From: an uncultured Blautia sp.
GTDB taxonomy: Bacteria; Bacillota; Clostridia; Lachnospirales; Lachnospiraceae
Assembly (NCBI GenBank): GCA_900556555.1
Contig: USPF01000014.1
Coordinates: forward strand, 1-42,854
Direction: 5' to 3'
Length of the DNA stretch: 42,854 bases
In this document: positions 4,757 through 28,798 of the stretch, piece by piece
Numbering within the stretch: position 1 is the stretch's first letter
How the letters are laid out: every line of letters begins with the position of its first letter
Made by a program: the position numbers and the translations under genes
Notes under the pieces: model-generated
What the model was told of the DNA's origin: nothing
The model's database searches: none
Seen by the model: only the letters and a program-made list of their open reading frames with translations

Positions 4757-4796
4757 AAAAAAACACAACAGCTAAAAAGCAGAAGGGAAAATAAGA

Positions 4797-6377: not shown

Positions 6378-6399
6378 GATGGTGTAGGATAGAGGAGAA

Positions 6400-15355: not shown

Positions 15356-15452
15356 TATGCTCTCATGTATCAAAAAATATACAAAATTATTTACAAATTT
15401 CAAGTGTTAGCAGTGATTCTTAACAAAATAATATAAGAAATACAAAATAGTG

Positions 15453-15481
15453 TTGTTAAAATATTATCAATATGGTATAGT
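15453..15481 (+). promoter_or_regulatory. Main promoter of the redox operon with overlapping Rex-like operator
   Basis: -35 TTGTTA (15453-15458), 17 nt, -10 TATAGT (15476-15481). The -35 is embedded in TTGTTAAAATATTATCAA (15453-15470), which fits the clostridial Rex consensus TTGTTAA-N4-TTAACAA with one mismatch. Rex represses when NADH/NAD+ is low, so this operon would be induced by excess NADH. Confidence 0.65.
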
Positions 15482-15548
15482 TACAAAGTAAATCGGAAAA
15501 GTCACAAGATACAGAATTATAAGTGATTTCTTAGTAGTCAATATGATA

Positions 15549-15573
15549 TCACAAATTTCAAATATTTTTGTGA
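15549..15573. promoter_or_regulatory. Inverted repeat TCACAAA-N11-TTTGTGA in the redox-operon leader
   Basis: Perfect 7-bp arms at 15549-15555 and 15567-15573. It lies between the two Rex-like sites and could be an RNA hairpin or another operator. No regulator is assigned. Confidence 0.35.
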
Positions 15574-15602
15574 CAAAACCGATTATATTTTTTTAGATTG
15601 CA

Positions 15603-15620
15603 TTGTTAAAAATTAAACAA
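15603..15620. promoter_or_regulatory. Second Rex-like operator upstream of mdh
   Basis: TTGTTAAAAATTAAACAA matches TTGTTAA-N4-TTAACAA with one mismatch in the half-sites. It lies about 40 bp before the mdh start, in the transcribed leader, and could act as a roadblock or cooperate with the promoter-proximal site. Confidence 0.6.
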
Positions 15621-15658
15621 TTCCATGCTGAATTTGGAAAAACAGAAAGGAGTACCAT

Positions 15659-16609
15659 ATGAGCAGTAAAATTACGATTATCGGTGCAGGAAGTGTTGGG
15701 GCGACTATTGCATATAACTTATCCAATGAAGAGATTGCTTCGGAGATTGTTTTAATTGATATCAACGAAGAAAAAGTAGAGGGAGAAGTTCTGGATATTG
15801 CCCAGGGAACTTGTTTCCGTGATCCAATCTCCATTGTTGCAGGGACTTATGAAGATGCAAAGGATTCAGATATTGTCATCATTACTTCTGGAATTGCCCG
15901 TAAGCCGGGACAGACCCGTATCGAACTGGCACAGACCAATGTTAATATCTTAAAATCCATTACTCCTCAGATTGTAAAAGCAGCTCCGGATGCACTTTAT
16001 ATTATCGTAAGTAATCCGGTAGATGTTATGACCTATGTATTTACAAAGATTTCAGGACTTCCCGAAAATCAGATCATTGGTTCCGGTACGATTCTTGACT
16101 CTGCCCGTCTTCGCTGCGGGCTTTCAGAACATTTTAAGGTTGCTCAGAAAAACATTCATGCTTATGTATTTGGTGAGCATGGGGACAGCTCCTTTATTCC
16201 GTGGACAGGTGCTTATATTTCCGGTGTCAGTGTGGATGAATATTATCAGTTAGCAAAATCACTGGGAAAAGATGTGGAAGAGCTTGACAAAGATAAGATG
16301 CTGGAATATGTTCAGAAATCCGGCGGAAAAATCATTGCAAAAAAAGGTGCAACCTTCTATGCAGTGTCCAGGGCAGTATGTAAACTCTGTAACATCCTTC
16401 TGTCTGCTTCCGATTCCATTACAACAGTATCTTCCATGATGCATGGGGAATACGGAATCGAAGATGTATGCTTTAGTACACTTACTTTGGTAGGTCCAAA
16501 CGGGGTACAGGGAAAAGTGCCTATGCGGATGAATAAAGCAGAAATCGAACTTCTGAAAAAGAGTGCAGATGCATTGAAGGCAGTCATAGCACAGATTGAT
16601 TTGAATTAG
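15659..16609 (+). CDS. mdh: Malate dehydrogenase, LDH-fold (easily mistaken for L-lactate dehydrogenase)
   Basis: This is a 316-residue NAD-dependent 2-hydroxyacid dehydrogenase of the LDH/MDH superfamily. The N-terminal GAGSVG loop and D34 (VLIDIN) indicate NAD use. H174 in GEHGDS is catalytic, and D147/R150 lie in DSARLR. The specificity position (LDH residue 102) is R81 in GIARKPGQTR; lactate dehydrogenases have Gln there and malate dehydrogenases Arg. Context agrees: fumarase and fumarate reductase follow in the same operon, so the enzyme would reduce oxaloacetate to malate. AGAAAGGAG precedes the ATG. It is the first gene, 16 bp before hdrB, behind Rex-like operators. Confidence 0.82.
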   Translation: MSSKITIIGAGSVGATIAYNLSNEEIASEIVLIDINEEKVEGEVLDIAQGTCFRDPISIVAGTYEDAKDSDIVIITSGIARKPGQTRIELAQTNVNILKSITPQIVKAAPDALYIIVSNPVDVMTYVFTKISGLPENQIIGSGTILDSARLRCGLSEHFKVAQKNIHAYVFGEHGDSSFIPWTGAYISGVSVDEYYQLAKSLGKDVEELDKDKMLEYVQKSGGKIIAKKGATFYAVSRAVCKLCNILLSASDSITTVSSMMHGEYGIEDVCFSTLTLVGPNGVQGKVPMRMNKAEIELLKKSADALKAVIAQIDLN

Positions 16610-16625
16610 AAAGGATAACGGAAAA

Positions 16626-17423
16626 ATGAAATACAGTTATTATCCGGGCTGTACCCTCAGGACAAAAGCCAGGGAACTGGACAAGTATGCAAGGGAGAGT
16701 GCCAAGGTACTGGGGTTTGAACTGGAAGAAGTAGAAGACTGGCAGTGCTGCGGAGGAGTATATCCCCTGGGAACCGATGAGATTGCAACAAAGCTTTCCT
16801 CCATCCGTACCTTAAATGCTGCCAAAGAAAAAAAACAGGATCTTGTGACCATCTGTTCTGCCTGTCATCATGTGATTAAACGTGTCAACGATGATATGAA
16901 GAATGTAGAGGATATACGTACAAAAGCCAATAACTATATGAAGCTGGAAGAACCCTATGAAGGAGAAACCACAGTTCTTCATTACTTAGAGGTATTAAGA
17001 GACAGAGTTGGATTTGACAAAGTAAAAGAAAAAGTGGTTCATCCTCTTACCGGGAAGAAAATAGGTGCTTATTATGGCTGCCTGCTGTTAAGACCTGGAA
17101 AGATTATGGCTTTTGATAATCCGGAAAACCCAGCCATTATGGAAGACTTTATCCGTGCATTAGGTGCAGAACCTGTAATCTATCCGTACCGGAATGAATG
17201 CTGCGGCGGATATATTTCTCTGAAAGAAAAAGAGATGGCACAGAATATGTGTGAAAAAATCATGGACAGTGCATCAGGATTTGGTGCAGATATGCTGATC
17301 ACAGCCTGTCCATTGTGCAAATATAACTTGTGTAAAAATGGAACAGACAGCGTTCCGGTCTATTATTTTACAGAGCTTCTGGCAGAAGCCCTTGGTGTGA
17401 AAGAGAAAAAGGAGGAGGACTGA
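16626..17423 (+). CDS. hdrB: Heterodisulfide reductase subunit B-like protein (two CCG domains)
   Basis: This 265-residue soluble protein has two complete cysteine-rich CCG domains. The first uses C9, C41-C42, C77 and C80 (CCGG and CSAC); the second uses C152, C192-C193, C228 and C231 (CCGG and CPLC). In HdrB these bind non-cubane 4Fe-4S clusters that reduce a disulfide. Lachnospiraceae lack CoM-S-S-CoB, so here the clusters may pass electrons to the neighbouring fumarate reductase proteins or to an unknown thiol/disulfide carrier. It sits 2 bp before hdrC and is followed by hdrA, the canonical HdrBCA set in compact form. Confidence 0.92.
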   Translation: MKYSYYPGCTLRTKARELDKYARESAKVLGFELEEVEDWQCCGGVYPLGTDEIATKLSSIRTLNAAKEKKQDLVTICSACHHVIKRVNDDMKNVEDIRTKANNYMKLEEPYEGETTVLHYLEVLRDRVGFDKVKEKVVHPLTGKKIGAYYGCLLLRPGKIMAFDNPENPAIMEDFIRALGAEPVIYPYRNECCGGYISLKEKEMAQNMCEKIMDSASGFGADMLITACPLCKYNLCKNGTDSVPVYYFTELLAEALGVKEKKEED

Positions 17424-17425
17424 AC

Positions 17426-17824
17426 ATGGAGCGATATATGAGCGGAAAAGATGCGGCAGAACGCATCAAAGAAATTTCCGGAACCAATCCTTTAAAATGC
17501 ATGAAATGTGGAAAATGTTCTGCAACCTGTCCTTCTTTTGCTGAAATGGATATCAAACCCCATCAGTTTGTATCTTATGTTGTCAACGAAGATATAGAAG
17601 CACTTGTAAATTCCAAATCTCTCTGGAAATGCCTCTCTTGTTTTGCATGTGTGGAGCGGTGTCCAAGAGATGTAAAACCAGGAAAAATCATTGATGCTGC
17701 CAGACAGCTTGTGGTTCGTAAAAAAGGCGGGGATTATCTCTCACCTGATGAAATCCCGGAACTTCTTGATCCGGAGCTTCCTCAGCAGTTACTGGTAAGT
17801 GCATTCAGAAGATACAGGAGGTAA
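17426..17824 (+). CDS. hdrC: Heterodisulfide reductase subunit C-like 2x[4Fe-4S] protein
   Basis: This 132-residue ferredoxin-like protein binds two 4Fe-4S clusters: C25, C28, C31, C35 (CMKCGKCSATCP) and C69, C72, C75, C79 (CLSCFACVERCP). In Hdr complexes it links the HdrA flavin subunit to HdrB. GGAGG precedes the start, and the gene lies between hdrB (2 bp) and hdrA (5 bp). Size and cysteine spacing are normal for HdrC. No membrane segment is present, so this is the cytoplasmic (HdrABC) type rather than the membrane HdrDE type. Confidence 0.92.
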   Translation: MERYMSGKDAAERIKEISGTNPLKCMKCGKCSATCPSFAEMDIKPHQFVSYVVNEDIEALVNSKSLWKCLSCFACVERCPRDVKPGKIIDAARQLVVRKKGGDYLSPDEIPELLDPELPQQLLVSAFRRYRR

Positions 17825-17829
17825 GCAAA

Positions 17830-19818
17830 GTGCAGAGAATCGGTGTGTTTGTCTGCCACTGCGGAAGTAATATTGCCGCTACGGTAGATGTGAAAAAAGT
17901 AGTAGAAATAGCTGCAAAAGAACCTGGAGTTGTCCATGCAGAAGATTACCAGTATATGTGTTCTGAGGCGGGGCAGGCGAAAATCCAGGAAGCCATCAAA
18001 GAAAAAAAATTAACAGGAATCGTAGTGTGTTCCTGTTCTCCCCGTATGCATGAGGCTACCTTTAGAAAAGCAGCGGAACGTGCAGGGCTGAATCCTTATA
18101 TGGTGGAAATCGCCAACATCCGTGAGCACTGCTCCTGGATTCATAAGGATATGGAAGAGGCTACAGAAAAGGCAGTTATCCTTGCAAGAGCAGCCATTGC
18201 CAAGGTACATCTGAACAGCCCGCTGAAACCGGGAGAGAGCCGTGTGACCAAGAGGGCACTGATCATTGGCGGAGGTATCGCAGGAATCCAGACGGCTCTT
18301 GATATTGCAGATGCAGGATACGAAGTAGATATTGTGGAAAAGACACCAAGCATTGGCGGAAGAATGTCACAGCTTGACAAGACCTTTCCTACCTTAGATT
18401 GTTCTGCATGTATTCTCACTCCTAAGATGGTGGAAGCCGCTTCCCACGAAAAAATCACTATTTATACATACAGCGAAGTGGAAAAAGTCAGCGGTTTTGT
18501 GGGGAATTTCTCAGTAGATATTAAGAAAAAAGCAAGAAGTGTAGACATTGATAAATGTACAGGCTGCGGTCTTTGCCAGGAAAAATGTCCTTCCAAGAAG
18601 ATTCCAAGTGAATTTAACAGAGGACTCAGCAACAGAACTGCTATCTATACACCATTTGCCCAGGCAATCCCAAATGTGCCGGTGATTGACCGTGAGAATT
18701 GTATGAAATTCAAAACCGGAAAATGCGGCATCTGTTCTAAAGTATGTCAGGCAGGAGCCATTGATTATACCCAGAAGGATGAAATCATCACCAGAAATTA
18801 CGGAGCCATTGTGGTTGCAACCGGTTTTGATACCATCAAGCTGGATCAGTATGATGAATATGCATACAACCAGAGCAAAGACGTGATTACATCTCTGGAA
18901 CTGGAGCGTATCATGAATGCGGCAGGTCCAACAAAAGGCCATCTGGAGCGTCTCTCTGACGGAAAAGCACCGAAGGAAATGGTCTTTATCCAATGTGTGG
19001 GAAGCCGTTGTGCAGACGACAGAGGAAAGCCATATTGTTCCAAAATCTGCTGTATGTACACTGCAAAACATGCCATGCTGATCCGTGATAAATATCCGGA
19101 TGTGAATGTAACGGTATTCTACATTGATGTGCGTACACCTGGTAAAAATTTTGATGAATTTTACAGGCGGGCAGTGGAGCAGTACGGAGTCAATTATATT
19201 AAAGGCCAGGTGGGTAAGGTAATCCCGCAGCCAAACGGAAAGCTGCTGGTACAGGGCTCAGATCTTCTGGATAATAAGCAGATTCTGAAAGAAGCAGATA
19301 TGGTGGTGCTGGCAACTGCCATTGAACCAAATCCAGATGTGCGTAAGATTGCAACCATGCTCACAGCGAGCATTGATACCAATAATTTCCTTACGGAAGC
19401 TCATGCAAAACTCCGCCCAGTGGAATCACCAACAGCCGGTATTTTCCTCTCAGGCGTATGCCAGGGACCAAAGGATATTCCGGAGACTGTGGCACAGGCA
19501 GGTGCGGCAGCCGTGAAGGCCATCGGGCTTCTTGCAAAGGATAAGCTGATGACCAATCCATGTACAGCAAAATCAGATGAACTTCTCTGCAACGGTTGTT
19601 CTGCATGTGCAAATGTCTGTCCGTATGGTGCGATTTCTTATGAGGAAAAAGAAGTAAACGATCACGGTATCCGTGAAACCAGAAGAATTGCAGTGGTCAA
19701 TACAGCACTTTGCCAGGGCTGCGGTGCATGTACAGTTACCTGTCCATCCGGTGCAATGGATCTGCAGGGCTTCTCAAACAGACAGATTTTAGCGGAGGTA
19801 GATGCAATATGCCGATAG
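17830..19818 (+). CDS. hdrA: Heterodisulfide reductase subunit A-like FAD/Fe-S protein (candidate bifurcating subunit)
   Basis: This 662-residue protein starts at GTG 17830, with AGGAGG upstream overlapping the end of hdrC. Order of parts: N-terminal cysteine domain (VCHCG, C9/C11), FAD Rossmann motif GGGIAG near 144, CSAC motif near 194, one 4Fe-4S set CTGCGLCQEKCP near 240, CGICSKVC near 298, a second half of the flavoprotein fold, and two C-terminal ferredoxin clusters CNGCSACANVCP (~587) and CQGCGACTVTCP (~628). In characterised Hdr complexes HdrA carries the bifurcating FAD and delivers low-potential electrons to ferredoxin. It is followed, with a 10-bp overlap, by mvhD. Confidence 0.93.
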   Translation: MQRIGVFVCHCGSNIAATVDVKKVVEIAAKEPGVVHAEDYQYMCSEAGQAKIQEAIKEKKLTGIVVCSCSPRMHEATFRKAAERAGLNPYMVEIANIREHCSWIHKDMEEATEKAVILARAAIAKVHLNSPLKPGESRVTKRALIIGGGIAGIQTALDIADAGYEVDIVEKTPSIGGRMSQLDKTFPTLDCSACILTPKMVEAASHEKITIYTYSEVEKVSGFVGNFSVDIKKKARSVDIDKCTGCGLCQEKCPSKKIPSEFNRGLSNRTAIYTPFAQAIPNVPVIDRENCMKFKTGKCGICSKVCQAGAIDYTQKDEIITRNYGAIVVATGFDTIKLDQYDEYAYNQSKDVITSLELERIMNAAGPTKGHLERLSDGKAPKEMVFIQCVGSRCADDRGKPYCSKICCMYTAKHAMLIRDKYPDVNVTVFYIDVRTPGKNFDEFYRRAVEQYGVNYIKGQVGKVIPQPNGKLLVQGSDLLDNKQILKEADMVVLATAIEPNPDVRKIATMLTASIDTNNFLTEAHAKLRPVESPTAGIFLSGVCQGPKDIPETVAQAGAAAVKAIGLLAKDKLMTNPCTAKSDELLCNGCSACANVCPYGAISYEEKEVNDHGIRETRRIAVVNTALCQGCGACTVTCPSGAMDLQGFSNRQILAEVDAICR

Positions 19819-20252
19819 AAAATAAGGAAGAATTCAAACCGAAAATTGTAGCGTTTTGCTGTAACTGGTGCAGCTATGCAGGAGCGGATCTTGCAGGAAG
19901 CAGCCGTCTTTCCTATCCGGCTGATGTAAAGATCATCCGTGTTCCCTGCTCCTGCCGTGTGAATCCCATGTTTATTTTGAGAGCCTTTGAAAAAGGAGCA
20001 GACGGTGTGATCATGTGCGGCTGCCACCCGGGGGATTGTCATTACAGCACAGGAAATTATTATGCCAGAAGACGAATGGCACTTCTGTTTTCCATGCTGG
20101 ACTATATCGGTGTGGAGAATGGCAGAACCAGAGTAGAATGGGTTTCTGCTGCAGAAGGTGTAAAATTCTCCCAGACCATGAATGAATTTGTGGAAAAAAT
20201 TCACTCTTTGGGAAGAAATGTAAGATTGGAGGATTTAAGATGCAGGAATTAG
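19809..20252 (+). CDS. mvhD: MvhD/FlxD-type iron-sulfur subunit
   Basis: This 147-residue protein starts at ATG 19809 (GGAGG 10 nt upstream, overlapping hdrA by 10 bp). It has the MvhD cysteine pattern CCNWC (17-21), PCSCR (47-49), and CGCHPGDCHY (70-78). In methanogens and Desulfovibrio this subunit joins the electron-input module (hydrogenase, formate dehydrogenase or FlxABC) to HdrA. Its presence says that HdrA is fed by another oxidoreductase. The candidates are the three genes that follow, since there is no hydrogenase here. It overlaps the next gene by 13 bp. Confidence 0.9.
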   Translation: MPIENKEEFKPKIVAFCCNWCSYAGADLAGSSRLSYPADVKIIRVPCSCRVNPMFILRAFEKGADGVIMCGCHPGDCHYSTGNYYARRRMALLFSMLDYIGVENGRTRVEWVSAAEGVKFSQTMNEFVEKIHSLGRNVRLEDLRCRN

Positions 20253-21214
20253 TGAACCGTGCAAAAGAATTGCTGGCTGACAAGACTGTAGCCCGTGTTC
20301 TTGGATGGAAAGCAGGAGACTTGCCTTATAATCCGGAACCGGCTTACTTTGAAACAGAAGAGTCTCTGAAGGATTTCGTGTACAACGGATTCTGTGGGGC
20401 GAATTTGAGCAAATATATGATAGAGGCTTCCAAAATGGAAGGAAAAACTCTGGTATGCCTGAAGCCTTGCGATACATACAGCTTTAATCAATTATTGAAA
20501 GAGCATCGCATAGACCGGGAAAAAGCCTATATCATCGGTGTGGGATGCAAAGGAAAACTTGATATCGAAAAAATCCGCCAGCAGGGAATCAAAGGGATTG
20601 AGCAGATTTCCGGAGCAGAAATGGAAGATGATGCAAGCATGCTTACAATACAGACTCTTTACGGAGAGAAGAGCTGTGCTTATCAGGATGCTATGCTGGA
20701 AAGATGTCATGTCTGCAAAGGAAAAGAACATAAAATCTATGACGAGCTGATTGGTGAGTCAAAAGATACGAAAGATGCGGAACGTTTCGCAGAGGTAGAA
20801 AAGATTGAAGCCATGAGCCCGGAAGAAAAATTTGCTTTTTTCCAGAAAGAATTAAGCAAATGTATCCGCTGCAATGCCTGCCGGAACGTGTGCCCTGCAT
20901 GCAGCTGCCGGAAATGTGTCTTTGACAGCAACAAATTCGACAGTGCCCAGAAAGTAAATGTGGATTCCTTTGAAGAAAAAATGTTTCATATTATCCGTGC
21001 TTTCCATGTGGCAGGAAGATGTACAGACTGTGGGGAATGCAGCAGAGTCTGTCCTCAGGGGATTCCGCTTCATCTGTTCAACCGCAAGTTTATCAAAGAT
21101 ATTAACGAATTTTATGGTGAGTATCAGGCAGGGGAAGACTGCGAGTCAAAAGGACCTCTTACGGATTTCACCTTTGATGATATTGAGCCAGGTGCAGCGG
21201 CAGAAAGGGGATAA
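20240..21214 (+). CDS. 4Fe-4S dicluster electron-transfer subunit, FlxC/FdhB-like
   Basis: This 324-residue soluble protein has an N-terminal FrhB/FdhB-like region (LVCLKPCDTYSF, YIIGVGCKGKLD; residues 70-107), a CHVCK pair (156-159), and two 4Fe-4S sites: C208, C211, C214, C218, plus extra cysteines CSCRKC, and C261, C264, C267, C271. It is the kind of Fe-S subunit that carries electrons between an NAD(P)H-oxidising flavoprotein and MvhD/HdrA in Flx-Hdr complexes. It starts inside mvhD and ends 3 bp before the next Fe-S gene. Assignment as FlxC rather than FlxB rests on recalled family features and gene order. Confidence 0.8.
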   Translation: MQELVNRAKELLADKTVARVLGWKAGDLPYNPEPAYFETEESLKDFVYNGFCGANLSKYMIEASKMEGKTLVCLKPCDTYSFNQLLKEHRIDREKAYIIGVGCKGKLDIEKIRQQGIKGIEQISGAEMEDDASMLTIQTLYGEKSCAYQDAMLERCHVCKGKEHKIYDELIGESKDTKDAERFAEVEKIEAMSPEEKFAFFQKELSKCIRCNACRNVCPACSCRKCVFDSNKFDSAQKVNVDSFEEKMFHIIRAFHVAGRCTDCGECSRVCPQGIPLHLFNRKFIKDINEFYGEYQAGEDCESKGPLTDFTFDDIEPGAAAERG

Positions 21215-21217
21215 TGT

Positions 21218-22249
21218 ATGTTTAAAATAAAAGCAGAAAATCTGCCGGCATTATTCCGTACCATTGCCGCAGAACAAGAATTATATTTGCCGGTAAAAGC
21301 CGGGGGACAGGTAAATTTTGCAGCCTGGAGTGAAGAGGCAGAGGTTTCTCTGGAAACCTTAAAAACAGTGAAATCACCGAAAGATGCCTTCTTTCCACAA
21401 AGTGAAAACCTTTATACCTGTGTAAGAGATGGCAAAAAAATCACCATCGAGCCGGAAGCCTTAAAAGAGCAGAATTTTGTTGTATTCGGAATGAAAGCCT
21501 GCGATGTGCAGGGGGTCAAAATCCTTGACAGGGTATTTTTAAGTGACCCTGTGGACAGTTTTTATGCGGCCAGAAGGGAGCATGGAACCATTGTAGCCCT
21601 TGCCTGCCATGAGCCGGAGGAAAGCTGTTTTTGTAAGGTGTTTGGCATTGATTGTGCAGAGCCGGCAGCAGATGTGGCTGCCTGGATGATCCATGGAGAG
21701 TTATATTGGAAGCCATTGACGGAAAAAGGAGAAACACTTACAGAACAAATAAAAGAAGTTCTCACAGATGCAGAGGAACAGCAGGTAGAGGAAGAAAAGA
21801 AAGCTATCCGTGCAATTGTGGAAAAACTTCCGTATTCTAACCTTTCTCTGAAAGGATGGGGAGAAAAGGACTATATGGAGCGTTTCAATTCTCCTGTGTG
21901 GGAAGAACTGTATAAACCATGTCTGGCATGCGGAACCTGCACCTTTGTGTGCCCGACCTGCCAGTGCTATGACATTAAAGATTACGATACAGGACACGGA
22001 GTACAGCGCTACCGCTGCTGGGATTCCTGCATGTACTCAGATTTTACCATGATGGCTCACGGAAATAACCGTACCAGCCAGATGCAGCGGTTCCGTCAGA
22101 GATTTATGCATAAACTGGTGTATTATCCGCTGAATAATGATGGCCTGTTTTCCTGCGTGGGATGCGGCAGATGTGTGGAAAAATGCCCGTCTTCTTTAAA
22201 TATTGTAAAAGTGATCAAAGCATTTGAGAAACAGGGAGGTGAAGCATAA
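21218..22249 (+). CDS. 4Fe-4S dicluster subunit, FlxB/HydB/AsrA-like
   Basis: This 343-residue protein is related to the beta subunits of sulfhydrogenase (HydB) and anaerobic sulfite reductase (AsrA). The N-terminal half carries VVFGMKACDVQGVKILDR (89-106). The C-terminal half has two 4Fe-4S sites (C235, C238, C241, C245 and C313, C316, C319, C323) separated by a conserved RYRCWDSCMYSDF segment. In related complexes it mediates electron flow from the NAD(P)H/FAD subunit encoded next. Its stop overlaps the next start by one base, implying translational coupling and a stable subcomplex. Confidence 0.85.
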   Translation: MFKIKAENLPALFRTIAAEQELYLPVKAGGQVNFAAWSEEAEVSLETLKTVKSPKDAFFPQSENLYTCVRDGKKITIEPEALKEQNFVVFGMKACDVQGVKILDRVFLSDPVDSFYAARREHGTIVALACHEPEESCFCKVFGIDCAEPAADVAAWMIHGELYWKPLTEKGETLTEQIKEVLTDAEEQQVEEEKKAIRAIVEKLPYSNLSLKGWGEKDYMERFNSPVWEELYKPCLACGTCTFVCPTCQCYDIKDYDTGHGVQRYRCWDSCMYSDFTMMAHGNNRTSQMQRFRQRFMHKLVYYPLNNDGLFSCVGCGRCVEKCPSSLNIVKVIKAFEKQGGEA

Positions 22250-23103
22250 TGCATGAATGTACCTGTCATAAAAATTATACCCTGGATACCCTGATTCCAA
22301 AGGTAGGGGTTATCACAGATATCCGTGAAGAAACACCAGATGTAAAAACCTTCCGTGTCAATGCACCGGAGGGAGGAAAGCTGTTTGAGCATATGCCGGG
22401 ACAATGTGCCATGCTGTGTGCTCCCGGTGTCAGTGAAGGAATGTTTTCTATTACATCTTCTCCAACAAATAAAGAATATCAGGAATTCAGTATCAAGAAA
22501 TGTGGTGCCCTTACGGATTATCTTCACAGCCTGGAAGTAGGAGATGAGATTACAGTCCGTGGACCTTATGGAAATCATTTTCCAGTGGAAGATAAGCTGA
22601 AAGGCAAAAATCTTCTGTTTATTGCCGGTGGTATCGGCCTGGCACCTTTAAGATCCGTGATTAATTACGTGCTGGATAACCGGGAAGACTACGGAACTGT
22701 GGATATTCTCTATGGCTCACGTTCCGCAGATGACCTTGTCCAGTTGAAGGAAATTCAGGATGTGTGGATGAAAACAGAAGGCGTCAATGTGTATCTGACC
22801 ATTGACCGTGAGCAGGAAGGATGGGACGGTCATGTGGGATTTGTTCCTTCTTATCTGAAAGAAATCGGCTTTGATACCAATAAGACTGCTCTTGTCTGCG
22901 GGCCGCCGATCATGATCAAGTTTGTGCTTGCCGGACTGGAAGAAATGGGATTTTCCAGAGAACAGGTTTATACCACCCTGGAGCTGCGTATGAAATGCGG
23001 TGTAGGAAAATGTGGCCGCTGTAACATTGGTTCCAAGTATGTCTGCAAAGACGGGCCGGTGTTCCGGTGTGATGAGATCGACGAGCTGCCTAACGAGTAC
23101 TAA
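22249..23103 (+). CDS. NAD(P)H/FAD oxidoreductase subunit, FlxA/HydG/AsrB/PyrK-like
   Basis: This 284-residue protein has a ferredoxin-NADP reductase fold: FAD-domain segment MPGQCAMLC (49-57) and FSITSSP (66-72), nucleotide-binding AGGIGLAPLR (126-135), CGPPIM (217-222), and a C-terminal [2Fe-2S] site C250, C255, C258, C266. It is the only pyridine-nucleotide-oxidising subunit in the operon and therefore the likely entry point for NADH. NADH versus NADPH cannot be told with certainty, but Rex-like control and malate dehydrogenase favour NADH. In FlxABCD-HdrABC the corresponding subunit starts the flow toward the bifurcating flavin. Confidence 0.87.
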   Translation: MHECTCHKNYTLDTLIPKVGVITDIREETPDVKTFRVNAPEGGKLFEHMPGQCAMLCAPGVSEGMFSITSSPTNKEYQEFSIKKCGALTDYLHSLEVGDEITVRGPYGNHFPVEDKLKGKNLLFIAGGIGLAPLRSVINYVLDNREDYGTVDILYGSRSADDLVQLKEIQDVWMKTEGVNVYLTIDREQEGWDGHVGFVPSYLKEIGFDTNKTALVCGPPIMIKFVLAGLEEMGFSREQVYTTLELRMKCGVGKCGRCNIGSKYVCKDGPVFRCDEIDELPNEY

Positions 23104-23120
23104 GAAAGGAAGACACCAAA

Positions 23121-23795
23121 ATGGAAAATATGGTTAATGTATATTTTTTCGGTAAAAAATACAGCGTACCGGCAGAGCTTACTATTATGACAGCCATGGA
23201 ATATGCAGGATACACCCTGAAAAGAGGATGTGGCTGCCGCCATGGGTTCTGCGGTGCCTGTGCTACCATTTACAGAATCAAGGGACAGAATGAATTAAAG
23301 ACCTGTCTTGCCTGTCAGACACAGGTGCAGGAAGGAATGTATGTGGCAAGCATTCCGTTTTTCCCAACAGACAAAAGAACTTATGATATCAATGAGATAA
23401 AACCCAACCAGCAGGTGATGATGGAGCTTTATCCGGAAATCTACAGCTGTATCGGCTGTAATGCCTGCACAAATGCCTGCACCCAGGATTTGAATGTTAT
23501 GCAGTATATCGCCTATGCTCAGCGTGGAGAACTGGAAAAATGTGCAGAAGAATCCTTTGACTGTGTAGGCTGCGGCTGCTGTTCTGTTAGATGCCCGGCT
23601 GGAATTTCCCATCCGATGGTAGGACTTCTTGCAAGACGCCTGACCGGAAAATACCTGGCTCCTAAGGCAGAGCATCTGGAAAAACGTGTAGAAGAGATCA
23701 ACAGTGGTGCATATGACGAACTGATTGAGCAGATCATGCAGAAACCAATCACAGAAATGCAGGAACTTTACAATAACAGAGACATTGAGAAATAA
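23121..23795 (+). CDS. Iron-sulfur subunit with [2Fe-2S] and two [4Fe-4S] sites, probable partner of the fumarate reductase flavoprotein
   Basis: This 224-residue soluble protein has an N-terminal 2Fe-2S ferredoxin-type domain (C37/C39, C44, C47, C62/C65; GFCGACATIY) and two 4Fe-4S sites, C110-C120 (CIGCNACTNAC) and C148-C158 (CVGCGCCSVRC). The order 2Fe-2S then two cubane sites resembles SdhB/FrdB and TfrB, but the cysteine pattern fits two 4Fe-4S clusters. It is placed 10 bp before the FrdA-like gene and downstream of the NADH-oxidising subunits, so it probably connects the Hdr/Flx module to the flavoprotein. It is not a canonical FrdB and I leave the symbol blank. Confidence 0.82.
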   Translation: MENMVNVYFFGKKYSVPAELTIMTAMEYAGYTLKRGCGCRHGFCGACATIYRIKGQNELKTCLACQTQVQEGMYVASIPFFPTDKRTYDINEIKPNQQVMMELYPEIYSCIGCNACTNACTQDLNVMQYIAYAQRGELEKCAEESFDCVGCGCCSVRCPAGISHPMVGLLARRLTGKYLAPKAEHLEKRVEEINSGAYDELIEQIMQKPITEMQELYNNRDIEK

Positions 23796-23805
23796 GGAGG
23801 GCACT

Positions 23806-25416
23806 ATGTATAAACCATATCCGGAAAATATGATGGAATCCATTAAAAAGGTGGAATCTACAAGAGCAGAGCGTATGGCAACAGAGCCAAGACGCCTGAC
23901 TGCTGATGAGAAAGATGCACTCCTTAGAGAATTTCATCCAGATTATAACCCTGATGCATTTGCAGAAATTAAGGTGGGTCCAAATAAAGGAGAAAGAGCA
24001 CCACGTGAGCTGGCTCATATGCTCCACTCTACAAGCCGTATCCAGAATGAGGAGATTGACCTTACCAAGATTGACTATGATGTGGATGTCCTGGTAATCG
24101 GCGGAGGCGGTGCAGGCTCTTCCTGTGCCATTGAAGCACATAATGCAGGTGCAGATGTTATGATCGTCACCAAACTGCGCATCGGTGACGCAAATACCAT
24201 GATGGCGGAAGGCGGAATTCAGGCAGCCGATAAGGAGAACGATTCTCCGGTACAGCATTATCTGGACTGTTTCGGCGGCGGACATTTTGCAGGAAGACCG
24301 GAGCTTGTAAAACGTCTGGTCATGGAAGCACCGGATGCCATTAAATGGCTGAATGAGCTGGGGGTTGAATTTGATAAAGAAGAAGACGGAGAGATGATTA
24401 CCACACACGGCGGTGGTACCTCCAGAAAGAGAATGCATGCTGCAAAGGATTATTCCGGGGCAGAAATCATGCGTACCGTCCGTGATGAAGTGATCAACCT
24501 TGGAATTCCGGTGGTGGAATTTACTTCCGCAGTGGAACTTCTGAAGGATGAAAAAGGACAGGTAGCAGGTGCAGTGCTTCAGAACATGGAGACCGGAGAT
24601 TATCTGGTAGCAAGAGCCAAAACCGTTGTCATTGCAACTGGCGGTGCAGGAAGAATGCATTACCAGGGATTCCCAACTTCTAATCATTATGGGGCAACCG
24701 CAGACGGGCTGATTCTTGGATATCGTGCAGGAGCACCTCTTCTGTACCAGGATTCCATCCAGTACCATCCAACAGGAGCCGTATATCCTGCTCAGATTCT
24801 GGGTGCACTGGTTACCGAAAAAGTCCGCTCCGTGGGAGCACAGCTTGTAAATGCAGAAGGTGAGGCATATATCCACCCACTGGAGACCCGTGATGTCAAT
24901 GCATCCGGTGTTATCCGTGAATGCCGGGAAGGCAGAGGCGTGGATGTGCCGGGAGGCCTGAAAGGCGTATGGCTGGACACTCCTATGATTGAGATGCTGG
25001 GAGGAGAAGGAACTATTGAAAAGCGTATTCCTGCTATGTTCCGTATGTATATGAATTACGGCATTGATATGAGAAAAGTTCCTATTTTAATCTACCCAAC
25101 CCTGCATTATCAGAACGGAGGACTGGAGATCAACGGAGATGGCTTTACCAAGACCATCCCGAATCTTCTGGTAGCAGGAGAAGCTGTGGGAGGAATCCAT
25201 GGCAGAAACCGACTTATGGGAAATTCTCTTCTTGATATCATTGTATTTGGCCGCAATGCAGGTAAGGCTGCAGCAGCAAAAGCAAAAGAGACAGAGATTG
25301 GAACCATGAACCTTGACCATATTTATGAGTATGCAGAAGAGTTAAAGAAAGCAGATGCAGATGAGCATGATATTTCTCCACTGCTTTTCCCAAACTACGC
25401 ACGCCATGAACGGTAA
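23806..25416 (+). CDS. frdA: Fumarate reductase-type flavoprotein (FrdA-like, soluble)
   Basis: This 536-residue protein starts at ATG 23806, where AAGGAGGG is ideally spaced. FAD binding: VIGGGGAGSS (97-106). Active-site signatures of the FrdA/SdhA family are present: HPTG (321-324), RECREGRG (R371/R374), H434 in LHYQNGG, and R467 in GIHGRNRLMGNSL. The residue that carries covalent FAD in membrane Frd/Sdh (His in SHT..AEGG) is N130 here (ANTMMAEGG), so FAD should be non-covalent. No membrane-anchor subunit with haem ligands follows. The next two genes encode fumarase, which supports fumarate as substrate. Related aspartate oxidase or other FAD reductases are less likely. Confidence 0.86.
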   Translation: MYKPYPENMMESIKKVESTRAERMATEPRRLTADEKDALLREFHPDYNPDAFAEIKVGPNKGERAPRELAHMLHSTSRIQNEEIDLTKIDYDVDVLVIGGGGAGSSCAIEAHNAGADVMIVTKLRIGDANTMMAEGGIQAADKENDSPVQHYLDCFGGGHFAGRPELVKRLVMEAPDAIKWLNELGVEFDKEEDGEMITTHGGGTSRKRMHAAKDYSGAEIMRTVRDEVINLGIPVVEFTSAVELLKDEKGQVAGAVLQNMETGDYLVARAKTVVIATGGAGRMHYQGFPTSNHYGATADGLILGYRAGAPLLYQDSIQYHPTGAVYPAQILGALVTEKVRSVGAQLVNAEGEAYIHPLETRDVNASGVIRECREGRGVDVPGGLKGVWLDTPMIEMLGGEGTIEKRIPAMFRMYMNYGIDMRKVPILIYPTLHYQNGGLEINGDGFTKTIPNLLVAGEAVGGIHGRNRLMGNSLLDIIVFGRNAGKAAAAKAKETEIGTMNLDHIYEYAEELKKADADEHDISPLLFPNYARHER

Positions 25417-25431
25417 TTCAGGAGGAGACCA

Positions 25432-26274
25432 ATGCGGGAAATAGAAGTAAGCAGACTGACCGATGTTATCCAGCGGCTTTGCATAGAAGCCAATGAGCAC
25501 CTTCCGGAAGATGTGAAATGTGCCATCAGACATTGCCGTGCCTGTGAAGATGGGGAAATTGCAAAAGGTGTTCTGGATAATATTATCGAAAATTTTGAGA
25601 TTGCAGATCAGGAACAGGTACCAATCTGTCAGGATACCGGTATGGCCTGTGTTTTCCTGGAAGTTGGACAGGAGGTTCATTTTACAGGAGGAGATTACAC
25701 AGAGGCTATCCATGAAGGTGTTCGCCGTGGATATGACAAGGGATATTTGAGAAAATCTGTTGTAAAAGACCCGGTCCGCCGTGGAAATACGGGAGATAAT
25801 ACACCAGCTATGATCTATACAGAAATCGTACCTGGAGACAAGGTAAAGATTACTGTAGGGCCAAAAGGCTTTGGAAGCGAAAATATGAGCCAGATCCGTA
25901 TGTTCAAACCATCCGCAGGCCTGCAGGGAATCAAAGATTTTATTTTAGAAACAGTGGAAACAGCAGGACCAAACCCTTGTCCGCCTATGGTGGTGGGAGT
26001 AGGAATCGGCGGTACCTTTGACAAATGTGCACTGCTGGCAAAAAAAGCACTGATGCGTCCTTTGGATTCTGAAAACCCGGATCCTTTCTATGCAGATCTG
26101 GAAAAAGAAATGCTGGAAAAAATCAACCAGCTTGGTATCGGACCCCAGGGATTCGGCGGAAAGACGACAGCAATCGGATTAAACATTGAAACGATGCCAA
26201 CCCATATTGCCGGTATGCCTTGTGCAATAAATATTAACTGTCATGTGACCCGCCATAAAACGGAGGTGATATAA
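25432..26274 (+). CDS. fumA: Fumarate hydratase class I, alpha subunit (TtdA/FumA N-terminal type)
   Basis: This 280-residue subunit is the 4Fe-4S hydro-lyase alpha half: PICQDTGMAC (64-73), a NTGDNTPAMIYTEI strand, KGFGSENMSQ, NPCPPMVVGVGIGGT, and the C-terminal NCHVTRHKTE. Cysteines in PICQ, NPCP and NINC are the expected cluster ligands. Family members hydrate fumarate or dehydrate malate or tartrate. Malate dehydrogenase at the start and FrdA just before make malate -> fumarate the natural reaction. GGAGGAG precedes the ATG, and the beta subunit starts 1 bp after the stop codon. Confidence 0.9.
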   Translation: MREIEVSRLTDVIQRLCIEANEHLPEDVKCAIRHCRACEDGEIAKGVLDNIIENFEIADQEQVPICQDTGMACVFLEVGQEVHFTGGDYTEAIHEGVRRGYDKGYLRKSVVKDPVRRGNTGDNTPAMIYTEIVPGDKVKITVGPKGFGSENMSQIRMFKPSAGLQGIKDFILETVETAGPNPCPPMVVGVGIGGTFDKCALLAKKALMRPLDSENPDPFYADLEKEMLEKINQLGIGPQGFGGKTTAIGLNIETMPTHIAGMPCAININCHVTRHKTEVI

Positions 26275-26275
26275 A

Positions 26276-26842
26276 ATGGAGAAACGCCGTATTACACTTC
26301 CACTGACAGAGGAACTGGCTGGTACCCTTCATGCAGGTGACCAGGTGTTAGTGACAGGAACCATCTACACCTCCAGAGATGCCGGACATAAAAGAATGTG
26401 TGAAGCACTGGAAAGAGGGGAAGAGATTCCTTTTGACCCTAAAGATGCCACCATCTATTATGTGGGACCTACCCCTGCAAAACCAGGTGCCGTGATCGGC
26501 TCTGCAGGGCCTACAACAAGTGGCCGGATGGACGCCTATGCCCCTACCATGATGTCTGTGGGAGCAAGAGGAATGATTGGAAAAGGTGCCCGTCTGCCGG
26601 AAGTGGTGGAAGCTATGAAGCAGTATCAGGGTGTATATTTCGGTGCAATCGGAGGTGCCGGTGCACTTCTTGCAAAATGCATCAAAAAGGCAGAACTGAT
26701 TGCCTATGAAGATTTAGGAGCAGAAGCACTTCGGAAATTATATGTGGAAGATATGCCTCTGGTGGTGATTATTGACAGCAAAGGAAATAATCTTTACGAA
26801 AGCGGCAGAGCAGCCTATCTTGCAGGAAAAGAAAACGCATAA
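26276..26842 (+). CDS. fumB: Fumarate hydratase class I, beta subunit
   Basis: This 188-residue protein is the C-terminal half of class I fumarase (TtdB-like): ITLPLTEELAGTLHAGDQVLVTG near the start, SRDAGHKRM, YYVGPTPAKPGAVIGSAGPTTSGRMD, and IGKGARLPEVVEAM. Alpha and beta are separate genes here, as is common in Firmicutes and archaea. E. coli FumA is a fusion. It is translated directly behind the alpha subunit after a strong GGAGG. It completes the route from malate to fumarate and feeds the fumarate reductase encoded upstream. Confidence 0.9.
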   Translation: MEKRRITLPLTEELAGTLHAGDQVLVTGTIYTSRDAGHKRMCEALERGEEIPFDPKDATIYYVGPTPAKPGAVIGSAGPTTSGRMDAYAPTMMSVGARGMIGKGARLPEVVEAMKQYQGVYFGAIGGAGALLAKCIKKAELIAYEDLGAEALRKLYVEDMPLVVIIDSKGNNLYESGRAAYLAGKENA

Positions 26843-26869
26843 AAAGACAGAAGGGGGAGCAAGTTTTCT

Positions 26870-27190
26870 ATGGATTTAAAAGCGACCGCAGATTTAATGG
26901 AAGCACTGATGATCTTATTTTTTGGTCTTTCCTGGCCAATCTCAATCTGCAAATCCTGGATTTCCAGAACCGCAAAAGGAAAGAGCCTTTTCTTTGAAGT
27001 ATTTATCTGGGTAGGATATATTTTTGGTATTGCCCGCAAATTTATGCAGGTATCCATGGGCGTGGAAACGAGCTGGCTGTTTTATCTGGCATGGTTTTTC
27101 TACTGCTTGAACCTCATCGAAATTACCATTGATATGATTTTATATTTCAGAAATGTAAAATTGGATAAAGCGGTAGAAGCAGCAAAATAA
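26870..27190 (+). CDS. Small three-helix membrane protein (PQ-loop/SemiSWEET-like), last gene of the redox operon
   Basis: This is a 106-residue membrane protein with three hydrophobic segments (about 9-29, 42-60, 67-91) and positively charged loops. The GLSWPISICKSWISRTAKGKS stretch resembles the PQ-loop half-transporter pattern (helix, Pro, then a K/S-T-K-G-K-S loop). No histidine is present, so it cannot be a haem-binding FrdC/SdhC anchor. Its position after fumarase suggests a role linked to C4-dicarboxylate metabolism, such as export, or membrane tethering of the complex, but no function can be read from it. GGGGGAGC precedes the start. Confidence 0.7.
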   Translation: MDLKATADLMEALMILFFGLSWPISICKSWISRTAKGKSLFFEVFIWVGYIFGIARKFMQVSMGVETSWLFYLAWFFYCLNLIEITIDMILYFRNVKLDKAVEAAK

Positions 27191-27205
27191 GAGAACATGC
27201 GAAAA

Positions 27206-27243
27206 AACGCAGTGGGTGAAGGAAAATACCCGCTGCGTTTTTT
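27206..27243 (+). terminator. Rho-independent terminator ending the redox operon
   Basis: AACGCAGTGGGT (27206-27217) pairs with ACCCGCTGCGTT (27228-27239, one G-U pair) and is followed by a T-tract. It is the first clear terminator after 15659 and defines the 13-gene unit. Confidence 0.92.
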
Positions 27244-27399
27244 GTACTGTCTGGTTATGAAAAATTCATTTTTATGCCGGAGCCTTTTGTGTTATACTGG
27301 ATGTAAAGCAGGAAAAGCAACAAATCTCAGAGGGAGAGTATTTTTATCGGAAAGATTGTGAAGTACAATACGGAGGCACTTACGAATAGGAGGATTATC

Positions 27400-28467
27400 A
27401 TGAAGACAGAATTTATTACCTTAAATGAAGAACGGAAGGTCACTCTGACCGCATACCTTCAGGAAGTGGGAGGAGCCTTTGGATACATTTCCAAAAGACC
27501 GGCAATCCTGATTTTGCCAGGAGGCGGATATCAATACTGCTCAGACAGAGAAGCAGATCCGGTAGCAATGCCCTATCTGAAGGCCGGTTATCAGGTTTTT
27601 ATTCTCCGCTACTCTGTAAAAGAGCACAGCCAATGGCCAAAGCCACTGGAAGATTATGAACAGGCTATGGCATTGATCCGCAAGAATGCAGAGATTTGGA
27701 AGCTGTATCCGGATAAAGTGGCAGTTCTTGGATTTTCCGCAGGCGGACATCTGGCAGGATGCGCGGCAACCATGGCAAAGGAAAAACCAAATGCAGCTCT
27801 TTTGGGCTATGCGGTAACAAAGGCAGAAGATGTTCAGATGTGTGAACCCCAGGCACCGGATGTAAACAAAGCTGTGGATGCTTCAACCTGCCCATGCTTT
27901 GTTTTTGCAACCTGCAATGACCAGCTGGTTCCTATTGAGAACTCTTTGAAATTCCTTCAGGCACTGGCAGAGCACAGCGTTACCTTTGAAAGCCATATCT
28001 ATGCTTATGGACCTCACGGATTCTCTACAGGTGATTCTTCTGTGCAGTTTCGAGAATCAGAAATGTGCAGCAGAGTCCCACAATGGGTAGAAGACAGTAT
28101 TGGATGGCTGAGAGATATGTTCGGTGATTTCGGAAATGAGGAAATGACAGCACCGGCCTGCAAAGGACATGTTACAGGCGATTATGAACCCATGCTTTCT
28201 GCGGAATGTACCTTTGGGTATCTGAGAAAACATCCTGGTGCAGCAGTTGTCATGACCCCTCTTTTGAAGTGGGTAGAAGAACATACAGAGGAAATCATGA
28301 GTAATGTTCGATTGATTCCGGAAGAGATAGCAGGACAACAGGGACTGGAAACTTTTTATTATATTGCAGACAACCGTATGCTTAAAGAAATTTTTCATTT
28401 TATGGGATTACCAAAAGAAATGGAGGCTGCTATTGAGCATGCTCTTTGTCAGATTCCCAATAAATAA
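27400..28467 (+). CDS. Alpha/beta hydrolase, esterase/acetylxylan-esterase-like
   Basis: This 355-residue cytoplasmic protein starts at ATG 27400 (AGGAGG 6-7 nt upstream). The alpha/beta hydrolase features are in its N-terminal ~240 residues: oxyanion-hole segment LPGGGYQ (39-45), nucleophile elbow GFSAGG with S113, acid D174 (CNDQLVP), and base H206 (GPHGFS). The family (BD-FAE/AXE-like) removes acetyl or other ester groups from small sugars and xylo-oligosaccharides. Residues ~245-355 form an extra C-terminal helical domain that resembles a small DUF1858/DUF-type module and is unusual for these esterases. It has its own promoter region (TATACT near 27294) and stands next to the 77-residue protein gene. 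Confidence 0.82.
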   Translation: MKTEFITLNEERKVTLTAYLQEVGGAFGYISKRPAILILPGGGYQYCSDREADPVAMPYLKAGYQVFILRYSVKEHSQWPKPLEDYEQAMALIRKNAEIWKLYPDKVAVLGFSAGGHLAGCAATMAKEKPNAALLGYAVTKAEDVQMCEPQAPDVNKAVDASTCPCFVFATCNDQLVPIENSLKFLQALAEHSVTFESHIYAYGPHGFSTGDSSVQFRESEMCSRVPQWVEDSIGWLRDMFGDFGNEEMTAPACKGHVTGDYEPMLSAECTFGYLRKHPGAAVVMTPLLKWVEEHTEEIMSNVRLIPEEIAGQQGLETFYYIADNRMLKEIFHFMGLPKEMEAAIEHALCQIPNK

Positions 28468-28487
28468 AGAATAGAAAGGTAGAAGTT

Positions 28488-28721
28488 ATGAATCCACGAA
28501 GGATGCTGGAACTGGCAAAGCTTCAGCAGAAATTTAAGAAAAACCATCCTAAAGTATTTCCATTTTTGAAAGCAGCGGCAGAGAAAGCCTTGCAGGAAGG
28601 CTCAGTTGTAGATATTTCCGTGACCACACCGGAAGGCAAAGTCATGAGAACCAATCTCAGAATCAAGCCGGAAGATATGGAAATCGTAGAACAATTAAAG
28701 CAAATGAGAAAGAATGTATAA
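28488..28721 (+). CDS. Small conserved protein of unknown function (77 aa)
   Basis: The protein starts MNPRRMLELAKLQQKFKKNH, is rich in Lys/Glu, and ends with an amphipathic helix. A predicted helix-strand-strand-helix order (VVDISVTTPEGK and MRTNLRIK as strands) is plausible. There is no signal peptide or membrane segment. GAAAGG lies about 8 nt upstream of the ATG. It lies 20 bp after the hydrolase and shares its terminator. I recognise the type as a common small clostridial protein but know no function. Confidence 0.75.
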   Translation: MNPRRMLELAKLQQKFKKNHPKVFPFLKAAAEKALQEGSVVDISVTTPEGKVMRTNLRIKPEDMEIVEQLKQMRKNV

Positions 28722-28732
28722 AAAAGATAAAG

Positions 28733-28783
28733 AATATCCAGGGCTGTTTGTGATTATCATTCCAGCAGCCCTGGATATTTTTA
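28733..28783. terminator. Bidirectional terminator between converging genes
   Basis: AATATCCAGGGCTG (28733-28746) pairs perfectly with CAGCCCTGGATATT (28766-28779), with T-rich sequence on the + side and A-rich sequence (AAAAAAGATAAAG) on the other. It serves the 77-aa gene and the opposing HAD gene. Confidence 0.9.
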
Positions 28784-28798
28784 AATACAATAAAATAT

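Follow-up and report, generated by a model that had tools for sequence, protein, structure and literature searches.

We analysed a 42,854-nucleotide contig from an uncultured Blautia sp. (USPF01000014.1; hereafter the window, meaning the whole stretch) and focus on an operon of 13 genes on its plus strand, at positions 15659-27190. The genes run mdh-hdrB-hdrC-hdrA-flxD-flxC-flxB-flxA-fes-frdA-fumA-fumB, followed by a gene for a small membrane protein; fes denotes an iron-sulfur protein gene next to frdA. The operon probably encodes a soluble, electron-bifurcating fumarate reductase that depends on reduced nicotinamide adenine dinucleotide (NADH) and reduces ferredoxin, together with the reductive branch from oxaloacetate to succinate, a reading to which we give a probability of about 0.7. 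A first-pass annotation made from the sequence alone had proposed the same role and electron route, and these remain the best supported. Several checks that might have spoken against them did not: the genes co-occur across genomes, HdrB belongs to a distinct subtype, HdrA bears a signature of bifurcation, the FrdA active site is kept, and searches of 29 operon genomes for a canonical FrdB came back empty in 27. The same annotation's claim of novelty, its comparison with TfrAB and its tie of FrdA to Hdr are corrected below.

Conservation of the locus and the FrdA-associated HdrB

GTDB species genomes scanned with an FrdA alignment as query yielded at least 569 relatives (tblastn E ≤ 1e-3; not all are necessarily members of the family), of which the best 80 were analysed. 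Fifty-eight of these close loci extend at least 7.7 kb upstream, and every one has hdrA, hdrB, hdrC, flxD and flxA on the strand of frdA and no more than 12 kb from it, with the Hdr-Flx block upstream of fes-frdA. That the same order recurs in 58 of 58 loci indicates that it is not due to chance. The other 22 loci end too early to judge, and one of them (L036) still shows Hdr-Flx genes. fumA is within reach in 51 of the 58. Among the matches listed, the closest named relatives are Lachnospiraceae, with an FrdA identity of 91% to L001.

In a phylum sample of 398 genomes, 47 have an FrdA match at E ≤ 1e-60. Full-length FrdA relatives occur in 39 of these (51-62% identity; 89% in B. luti), and the other eight hold canonical relatives only (35-40% identity, aligned only over residues 87-506 or so). 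Because full-length and canonical relatives separate in this way, the FrdA family is a discrete one, marked by some 90 additional residues at the N-terminus. Of the 39 FrdA-family genomes 35 have HdrA (E ≤ 1e-80), vs 107 of the 359 others (Fisher 2e-13, kinship ignored). The pattern is sharper for HdrB, for which up to six candidates were scored per genome: the top 28 genomes (at least 214 bits and 42% identity) all belong to the FrdA family, the next score is 199.8, and below it lies a mixed bulk of genomes. The high-scoring form, which we call F-type HdrB, is present in 28 of 39 FrdA-family genomes and in 0 of 359 without the family (Fisher 2e-34, kinship ignored).

An HdrB tree of 55 rows (the window, 12 close loci, distant loci with at least 230 residues, L155-L174 and four sequences from the HdrB search) gives the same division. 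Sixteen rows are set off by a long, fully supported branch (length 1.01, support 100/100). They comprise all 11 rows from genomes without operon-family FrdA, four rows from FrdA-family genomes (G422, G079 and the second copies of G340 and G084) and a copy close to frdA in G321, a genome that has an F-type HdrB too. The other 39 rows are F-type and come exclusively from FrdA-family genomes. A PGCT motif is found in 39/39 F-type sequences vs 1/16 of the other group, and F-type HdrB has x-x-[YF]-P after CCG; a CCGxSSA-like stretch is seen in 12/16 of the other group and 0/39 of the F-type. In seven genomes (G050, G390, G225, G275, G410, G250 and G131) F-type HdrB lies apart from frdA, within a separate Hdr-Flx cluster; one of these clusters is cut before flxA, and the G131 copy (L171) forms a long branch. 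A limited literature search on HdrB returned no description of this subtype. Many HdrA genes of genomes without operon-family FrdA contain a single in-frame TGA, as expected for selenocysteine HdrA; none was seen in the listed HdrA genes adjoining F-type HdrB.

HdrB thus co-occurs with FrdA beyond the gene neighbourhood, which suggests that it is HdrB that contacts fes-FrdA. This co-occurrence is what is new here, the overall proposal being already in print. Three comparisons support the same contact. The C-terminal domain of fes has an HdrC-like fold. The NCBIfam TfrB model, with scores far under its cut-off, matches fes over model positions 19-186 and HdrB over 415-487, so that TfrB resembles fes and HdrB joined in one chain. 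In Sporomusa, tagged HdrB is reported to pull down the acceptor flavoprotein MetF (PMC9430772).

Flx-Hdr and fes-FrdA might instead be separate enzymes that communicate through a diffusible thiol, the former reducing a disulfide (and ferredoxin) with NADH, and the latter drawing on the thiol or another carrier. HdrB does retain all ten ligands of its non-cubane clusters (the ten CCG cysteines are kept in 59/59 close and 18/18 distant sequences, one of the 18 being of the other subtype), the seven genomes above encode F-type Hdr away from fes-frdA, and PMC7282089 has Flx-Hdr electrons going to ferredoxin "and thiols". However, the operon has a single HdrB and fes has no CCG domain, so that FrdA is not encoded together with a thiol-oxidising site, and a shared small thiol would not require an HdrB subtype that tracks FrdA. 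We therefore consider the thiol link unlikely and prefer direct transfer from HdrB.

Neighbourhoods of up to 20 kb were compared for 39 of the 40 family matches (B. luti excepted) and one canonical relative, genes outside the operon's own set being read by eye unless Pfam named them. In 37 of the 39 family loci fes lies directly upstream of frdA; L150 begins too near frdA to judge, and L116, a second copy in G131, gave no match. The partners of this pair vary. A complete Hdr-Flx set stands beside it in L113, L133, L137, L141 and L144, and HdrCBA with FlxD, without a FlxA match, in L122, L123, L125-L127, L129, L130 and L146. HdrC-HdrB directly precedes fes-frdA, with no hdrA nearby, in L124, L142, L147 and L148. 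L118 has a cytochrome-b561-type protein with a Fer4 domain (Pfam), and L134 and L136 have a pyruvate carboxylase-like gene. L122 adds a QmoB-like protein of 1070 residues (domains by Pfam) and Kor-like and SucCD-like genes; the whole resembles a reductive tricarboxylic acid (TCA) branch. Two of the distant Hdr-Flx loci, L133 and L144, hold a DcuA/B-like gene, and L144 also an aspartase-like gene (by eye).

On a maximum-likelihood FrdA tree of 62 rows (the window, 21 of the 80 close loci, and L111-L150, with L121 as the canonical member), the Hdr-Flx neighbourhood requires three changes, all three forced by well-supported branches. Gene order differs accordingly between hdrB-hdrC-hdrA-flx-fes-frdA in the window group, hdrC-hdrB-hdrA-flx-fes-frdA in L113 and fes-frdA-hdrB-hdrC-hdrA-flx in the L133 group. 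The three changes may also represent one gain and two losses. L118, L119 and L120 form the deepest branch of the fes-FrdA family. We see about even odds that fes-FrdA is a soluble plug-in module, joined several times to Flx-Hdr, to Hdr with a QmoB-like protein, to HdrBC alone and to a cytochrome-b-type protein; that its HdrB subtype evolved into a dedicated wire, in which non-cubane clusters lead to an enzyme with a carbon substrate, rather than a disulfide reductase; and that it is the only complex-II-type enzyme in many gut Lachnospiraceae and their relatives, where succinate formation would yield energy via ferredoxin and Rnf with no need of a membrane fumarate reductase. Repeated joining of fes-FrdA to electron sources was not found described in the literature searched.

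Gene products, active sites and proposed electron route

All 13 open reading frames were confirmed on the plus strand with spacings of -13 to +27 bp, in line with the tight packing noted at first pass. Better start codons are available for flxD (19809) and frdA (23806), the TTG starts listed earlier being upstream extensions. The single terminator announced at 27206 is also there (27206-27243, plus strand): a 12-bp stem with one G-U pair, in which 27206-27217 pairs with 27228-27239, closes a 10-nt loop and is followed by a T run. Our terminator scan missed this hairpin because its loop exceeds the tool maximum of 8. Three plus-strand terminator-like sites fall within operon coding sequence (15789, 17339 and 21929); the 16 such sites in 14000-29500 are at chance level (14.2 ± 4.2 in shuffled sequences). 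Domain assignments from Pfam and NCBIfam model searches agree with the earlier labels. All coordinates below are on the plus strand.

The Hdr part comprises hdrB (16626-17423, 265 residues), with PF02754 twice, that is, two CCG domains for non-cubane [4Fe-4S] clusters; hdrC (17426-17824, 132 residues; TIGR03290 at 4e-18, under cut-off), with two [4Fe-4S] sites; and hdrA (17830-19818, 662 residues), the predicted bifurcating subunit with flavin adenine dinucleotide (FAD) and [4Fe-4S] sites, which aligns over residues 3-660 with methanogen HdrA (5odc_A, 693 bits). The eight HdrC cysteines are kept in 59/59 close and 23/23 distant sequences, some of the latter being other ferredoxin-type proteins. 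HdrA residues E359 and K413 (E356 and K409 of 5odc) are kept in 58/58 close and 15/15 distant rows, and the cluster cysteines of its inserted ferredoxin domain in 58/58 close loci. HdrA-based bifurcating complexes are thus matched in the FAD domain, the inserted ferredoxin domain and this glutamate-lysine pair, described as the mark of bifurcating HdrA (PMC9430772), as well as in the two CCG motifs of HdrB and the two [4Fe-4S] sites of HdrC.

Might the same proteins work without bifurcation, passing every NADH electron to fumarate? Non-bifurcating HdrA homologues exist (PMC9430772), and the balance of adenosine triphosphate (ATP) drawn up for B. luti by Trischler and Mueller in 2026 assumes an NADH-dependent fumarate reductase (PMC12773636). 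Yet a simple NADH dehydrogenase would need neither HdrA nor HdrC, the glutamate-lysine pair is present in 73/73 HdrA rows (two of them QmoB-like), the ferredoxin-domain cysteines are invariant in the close loci, and RnfC, a component of the expected ferredoxin outlet, gives a match over cut-off for 32 of 40 genomes, many of them draft metagenome-assembled genomes. We judge this option quite improbable, and retain bifurcation at HdrA.

The Flx part begins with flxD/mvhD (19809-20252, 147 residues), a [2Fe-2S] adaptor (PF02662 FlpD, 185 bits). It is followed by a flxC-type [4Fe-4S] protein (20240-21214, 324 residues; Fer4_8), a tentative name given by position at the conserved site between flxD and flxB, and by a flxB-type iron-sulfur protein resembling AsrA and sulfhydrogenase beta (21218-22249, 343 residues; PF17179; ShyB 5e-59, under cut-off). 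The predicted electron entry is flxA (22249-23103, 284 residues), AsrB-like with FAD/NAD(P)H and [2Fe-2S] domains (PF00175, PF00970, PF10418). fes (23121-23795, 224 residues) combines an N-terminal [2Fe-2S] ferredoxin with a C-terminal two-[4Fe-4S] domain whose predicted fold is like HdrC, and is the putative partner of FrdA.

frdA itself (23806-25416, 536 residues; PF00890, 222.6 bits) encodes a predicted soluble fumarate reductase flavoprotein with the N-terminal extension. Across 118 family members H321, E338, R341, R362, H434 and R469 are invariant and T337 is kept in 117; from alignment with SdhA (7d6v) we take these to be the catalytic residues. Canonical FrdA binds FAD covalently through a histidine. 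At that site all 118 members have Asn130, and the canonical L121 has His. E. coli FrdA without this histidine reportedly retains fumarate reduction and loses succinate oxidation, so that Asn130 suggests a bias in the reductive direction.

A different unsaturated acid as substrate, or a pathway running toward fumarate, is very unlikely on these data: mdh and fumAB belong to the operon, the catalytic residues are kept, the asparagine is universal at the flavin site, and the reverse reaction would cost about +49 kJ/mol under standard conditions. In favour of another acid stands L118 on the deepest branch, where fes-frdA also lies beside PrpF-like and MmgE/PrpD-like genes (by eye); the enzyme there is perhaps another unsaturated-acid reductase, fed from the membrane. 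For the window we keep fumarate reduction.

The flanking enzymes fit a route from oxaloacetate to fumarate. The class I fumarase is encoded by fumA (alpha, 25432-26274, 280 residues; PF05681, 400 bits) and fumB (beta, 26276-26842, 188 residues; PF05683, 198 bits). mdh (15659-16609, 316 residues; PF00056/PF02866) encodes a probable malate dehydrogenase (MDH) resembling lactate dehydrogenase (LDH). NCBIfam LDH models score best (PRK00066 341.6 bits, cut-off 339; TIGR01771 332.6, cut-off 303.6), and one MDH model is also passed (PRK06223, 289.1 vs 283). At a position that sets MDH/LDH specificity the protein has Arg (ARKPGQTR) and Bifidobacterium LDH 1lld has Gln (RQKPGQSR). Because 1y6j, the closest LDH-named structure, likewise has Arg there, the name leans on operon context too.

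From the genes, their conservation, residues and co-occurrence we infer complex formation, direction, electron donor, bifurcation and export as follows. FlxA would oxidise NADH, and electrons would pass via FlxB, FlxC and FlxD to the HdrA flavin. The flavin would hand one electron to ferredoxin and send the other through HdrC and the specialised HdrB, acting as a conduit, to fes, FrdA and fumarate. Two rounds would give 2 NADH + fumarate + 2 Fd(ox) -> 2 NAD+ + succinate + 2 Fd(red), where Fd is ferredoxin. The computed energy of this reaction under standard conditions is about -49 kJ/mol with ferredoxin at -420 mV and -33 kJ/mol at -500 mV.

Several points weigh against this reading. fes-frdA is also found with a cytochrome-b-type protein, a pyruvate carboxylase-like gene or none of the operon's genes. 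No HdrA match (E ≤ 1e-80) was found in four of the 39 FrdA-family genomes (G420, G336, G111, G107), and no F-type HdrB in 11 of them (the same four and G073, G115, G120, G422, G079, G170 and G294), some of which are drafts with short contigs. Given the other neighbours and these 11 genomes, fes-FrdA does not depend on Hdr everywhere. The score line for F-type HdrB was set after the gap was seen, the co-occurrence counts ignore kinship, and scoring in the phylum searches was limited to the best three to six candidates of each genome. HdrB's full ligand set is as compatible with thiol chemistry as with a conduit, the glutamate-lysine signature also occurs in QmoB-like proteins (two of the 15 distant rows), 8 of 40 genomes show no RnfC match over cut-off and 5 of the other 32 pass only narrowly (266-291 bits, cut-off 246), and confidence in the inter-domain fold of fes is modest (predicted template modelling score 0.65).

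Genome context and possible energy yield and export

A canonical FrdB/SdhB (TIGR00384, E ≤ 1e-12) was not found in 27 of the 29 operon genomes searched; the two that have one are B. luti and B. glucerasea. B. luti (G006) has another frdAB (L151), whose SdhB/FrdB is of the canonical type and which stands beside a membrane-type and a flavin mononucleotide-binding-type protein. B. luti forms succinate and shows NADH-dependent malate dehydrogenase and viologen-dependent fumarate reductase activities, and an Rnf complex is mentioned (PMC12773636); the main text of that paper contains neither "hdr" nor "heterodisulfide". Because of the second frdAB, these published data are blurred as to which fumarate reductase they concern. 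A B. luti genome (strain MSK.16.34; L006, L154) carries the operon, so that the question is directly testable in cultured gut bacteria. In two other operon carriers, Mordavella massiliensis (G026) and Clostridium sp. Marseille-P3244 (G031), the search gave no second FrdA-type protein. In another genome, Sporofaciens musculi (G023, L024), the FAD_binding_2 match of frdA is interrupted by four in-frame stops, which may be sequencing errors.

Succinate formed in the gut is of interest for health. Reduced ferredoxin would be used by Rnf, where present. If the reading is true, this would yield about 0.56 extra ATP per succinate (2 H+ per 2 electrons and 3.6 H+ per ATP, stoichiometries of PMC12773636), or about 0.23 ATP per glucose at 0.42 succinate per glucose (PMC12773636). 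Fumarate would join the acceptors of HdrABC-type bifurcation, and a recognisable HdrB subtype would gain a function.

The last gene (26870-27190, 106 residues) encodes a membrane protein with three predicted helices, as first described, and no Pfam match. Its AlphaFold2 model (predicted local distance difference test 88) has a SemiSWEET-like fold: the five best Foldseek hits are SemiSWEETs (template modelling score to target 0.70-0.77, E 0.1 or worse), and mitochondrial pyruvate carriers come lower in the list, with weak E-values. Sixty-one close loci extend at least 4 kb downstream; of these, 36 show a match to an AAE-family transporter (Asp-Al_Ex, PF06826, confirmed for L021 and L041) within 5.5 kb downstream of frdA, nine have the small membrane protein, none has both and 16 have neither (p 1e-4, kinship ignored). 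In L012, L021, L041, L059, L062 and L073 the transporter gene lies between frdA and fumA. An AAE-family carrier exports succinate in Corynebacterium. The two proteins are candidate alternative succinate exporters, which would release the product through the small membrane protein in the window and through the AAE-family carrier in relatives. No account of such an exporter slot was met in the literature, in which no search was aimed at the exporters.

Elsewhere in the window, a 564-residue open reading frame at 1299-2993 appears to fuse an AstE-type desuccinylase/deacylase domain to an S-adenosylmethionine-dependent methyltransferase, and a peptide/nickel-type ABC transporter follows downstream at 2997-7947 (both by eye).

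Comparison with known systems

The window operon does not correspond to classical complex II. Asn130 replaces the flavin-binding histidine in 118/118 family members, fes scores 25.7 bits on TIGR00384 for canonical FrdB/SdhB (cut-off 88), and the operon's only membrane protein is the SemiSWEET-like one rather than an anchor. Type E complex II (SdhABEF) is not matched either, the SdhE model giving 144.7 on HdrB (cut-off 500). Methanogen TfrAB likewise combines an FrdA-like flavoprotein with an iron-sulfur protein, but FrdA reaches 330.7 on the TfrA model (cut-off 718), fes 32.2 on TfrB (cut-off 385), and fes has no CCG half; TfrAB, cited at first pass, serves as an analogy only.

The nearest counterpart is the "succinate operon" of Pseudoclostridium thermosuccinogenes, which combines seven Flx-Hdr genes with fumarate hydratase, two genes for fumarate reductase and a hypothetical protein that is "potentially a succinic acid transporter" (PMC7282089). 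It is about 4-fold up under CO2 limitation, not significantly so for all subunits, and the authors assume fumarate reduction coupled to ferredoxin reduction, citing a 2019 preprint (10.20944/preprints201912.0288.v1). The same proposal is thus in print, and the novelty suggested at first pass narrows: we found neither a biochemical description of the exact gene set nor a biochemical test of the Flx-Hdr-linked proposal in the literature searched. The window shares fumarase, HdrABC, FlxABCD, iron-sulfur protein and FrdA in one operon, and has mdh in addition. By locus tags the P. thermosuccinogenes order is fumarate reductase, Flx-Hdr, fumarate hydratase, unlike the window; its fumarate reductase/Flx-Hdr part is ordered as in L133, L137, L141 and L144 (compared by description).

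In tubeworm symbionts and Thioflavicoccus mobilis, tfrAB is interspersed with flxABCD-hdrABC and a complex has been suggested (PMC6315080). That system lies in a reductive TCA cluster with korABCD, to which L122 looks nearer than the window (compared by description). A published list of known bifurcating systems has no fumarate reductase among those shown (PMC5861303). The methylene-tetrahydrofolate reductase HdrABC-MvhD-MetVF of Sporomusa and Moorella resembles the window in that HdrABC-MvhD serves a flavoprotein acceptor other than a disulfide; it differs in acceptor enzyme and donor module, and its HdrA is longer and without the inserted ferredoxin domain that the window HdrA has (PMC9430772).

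In the sampled Flx-Hdr clusters of genomes without the FrdA family, HdrB is of the separate subtype in 9/9 cases (L155-L163). The FlxABCD-HdrABC complex of Desulfovibrio and Clostridia, as reportedly set out by Ramos and colleagues in 2015, has the same seven subunits as the window.

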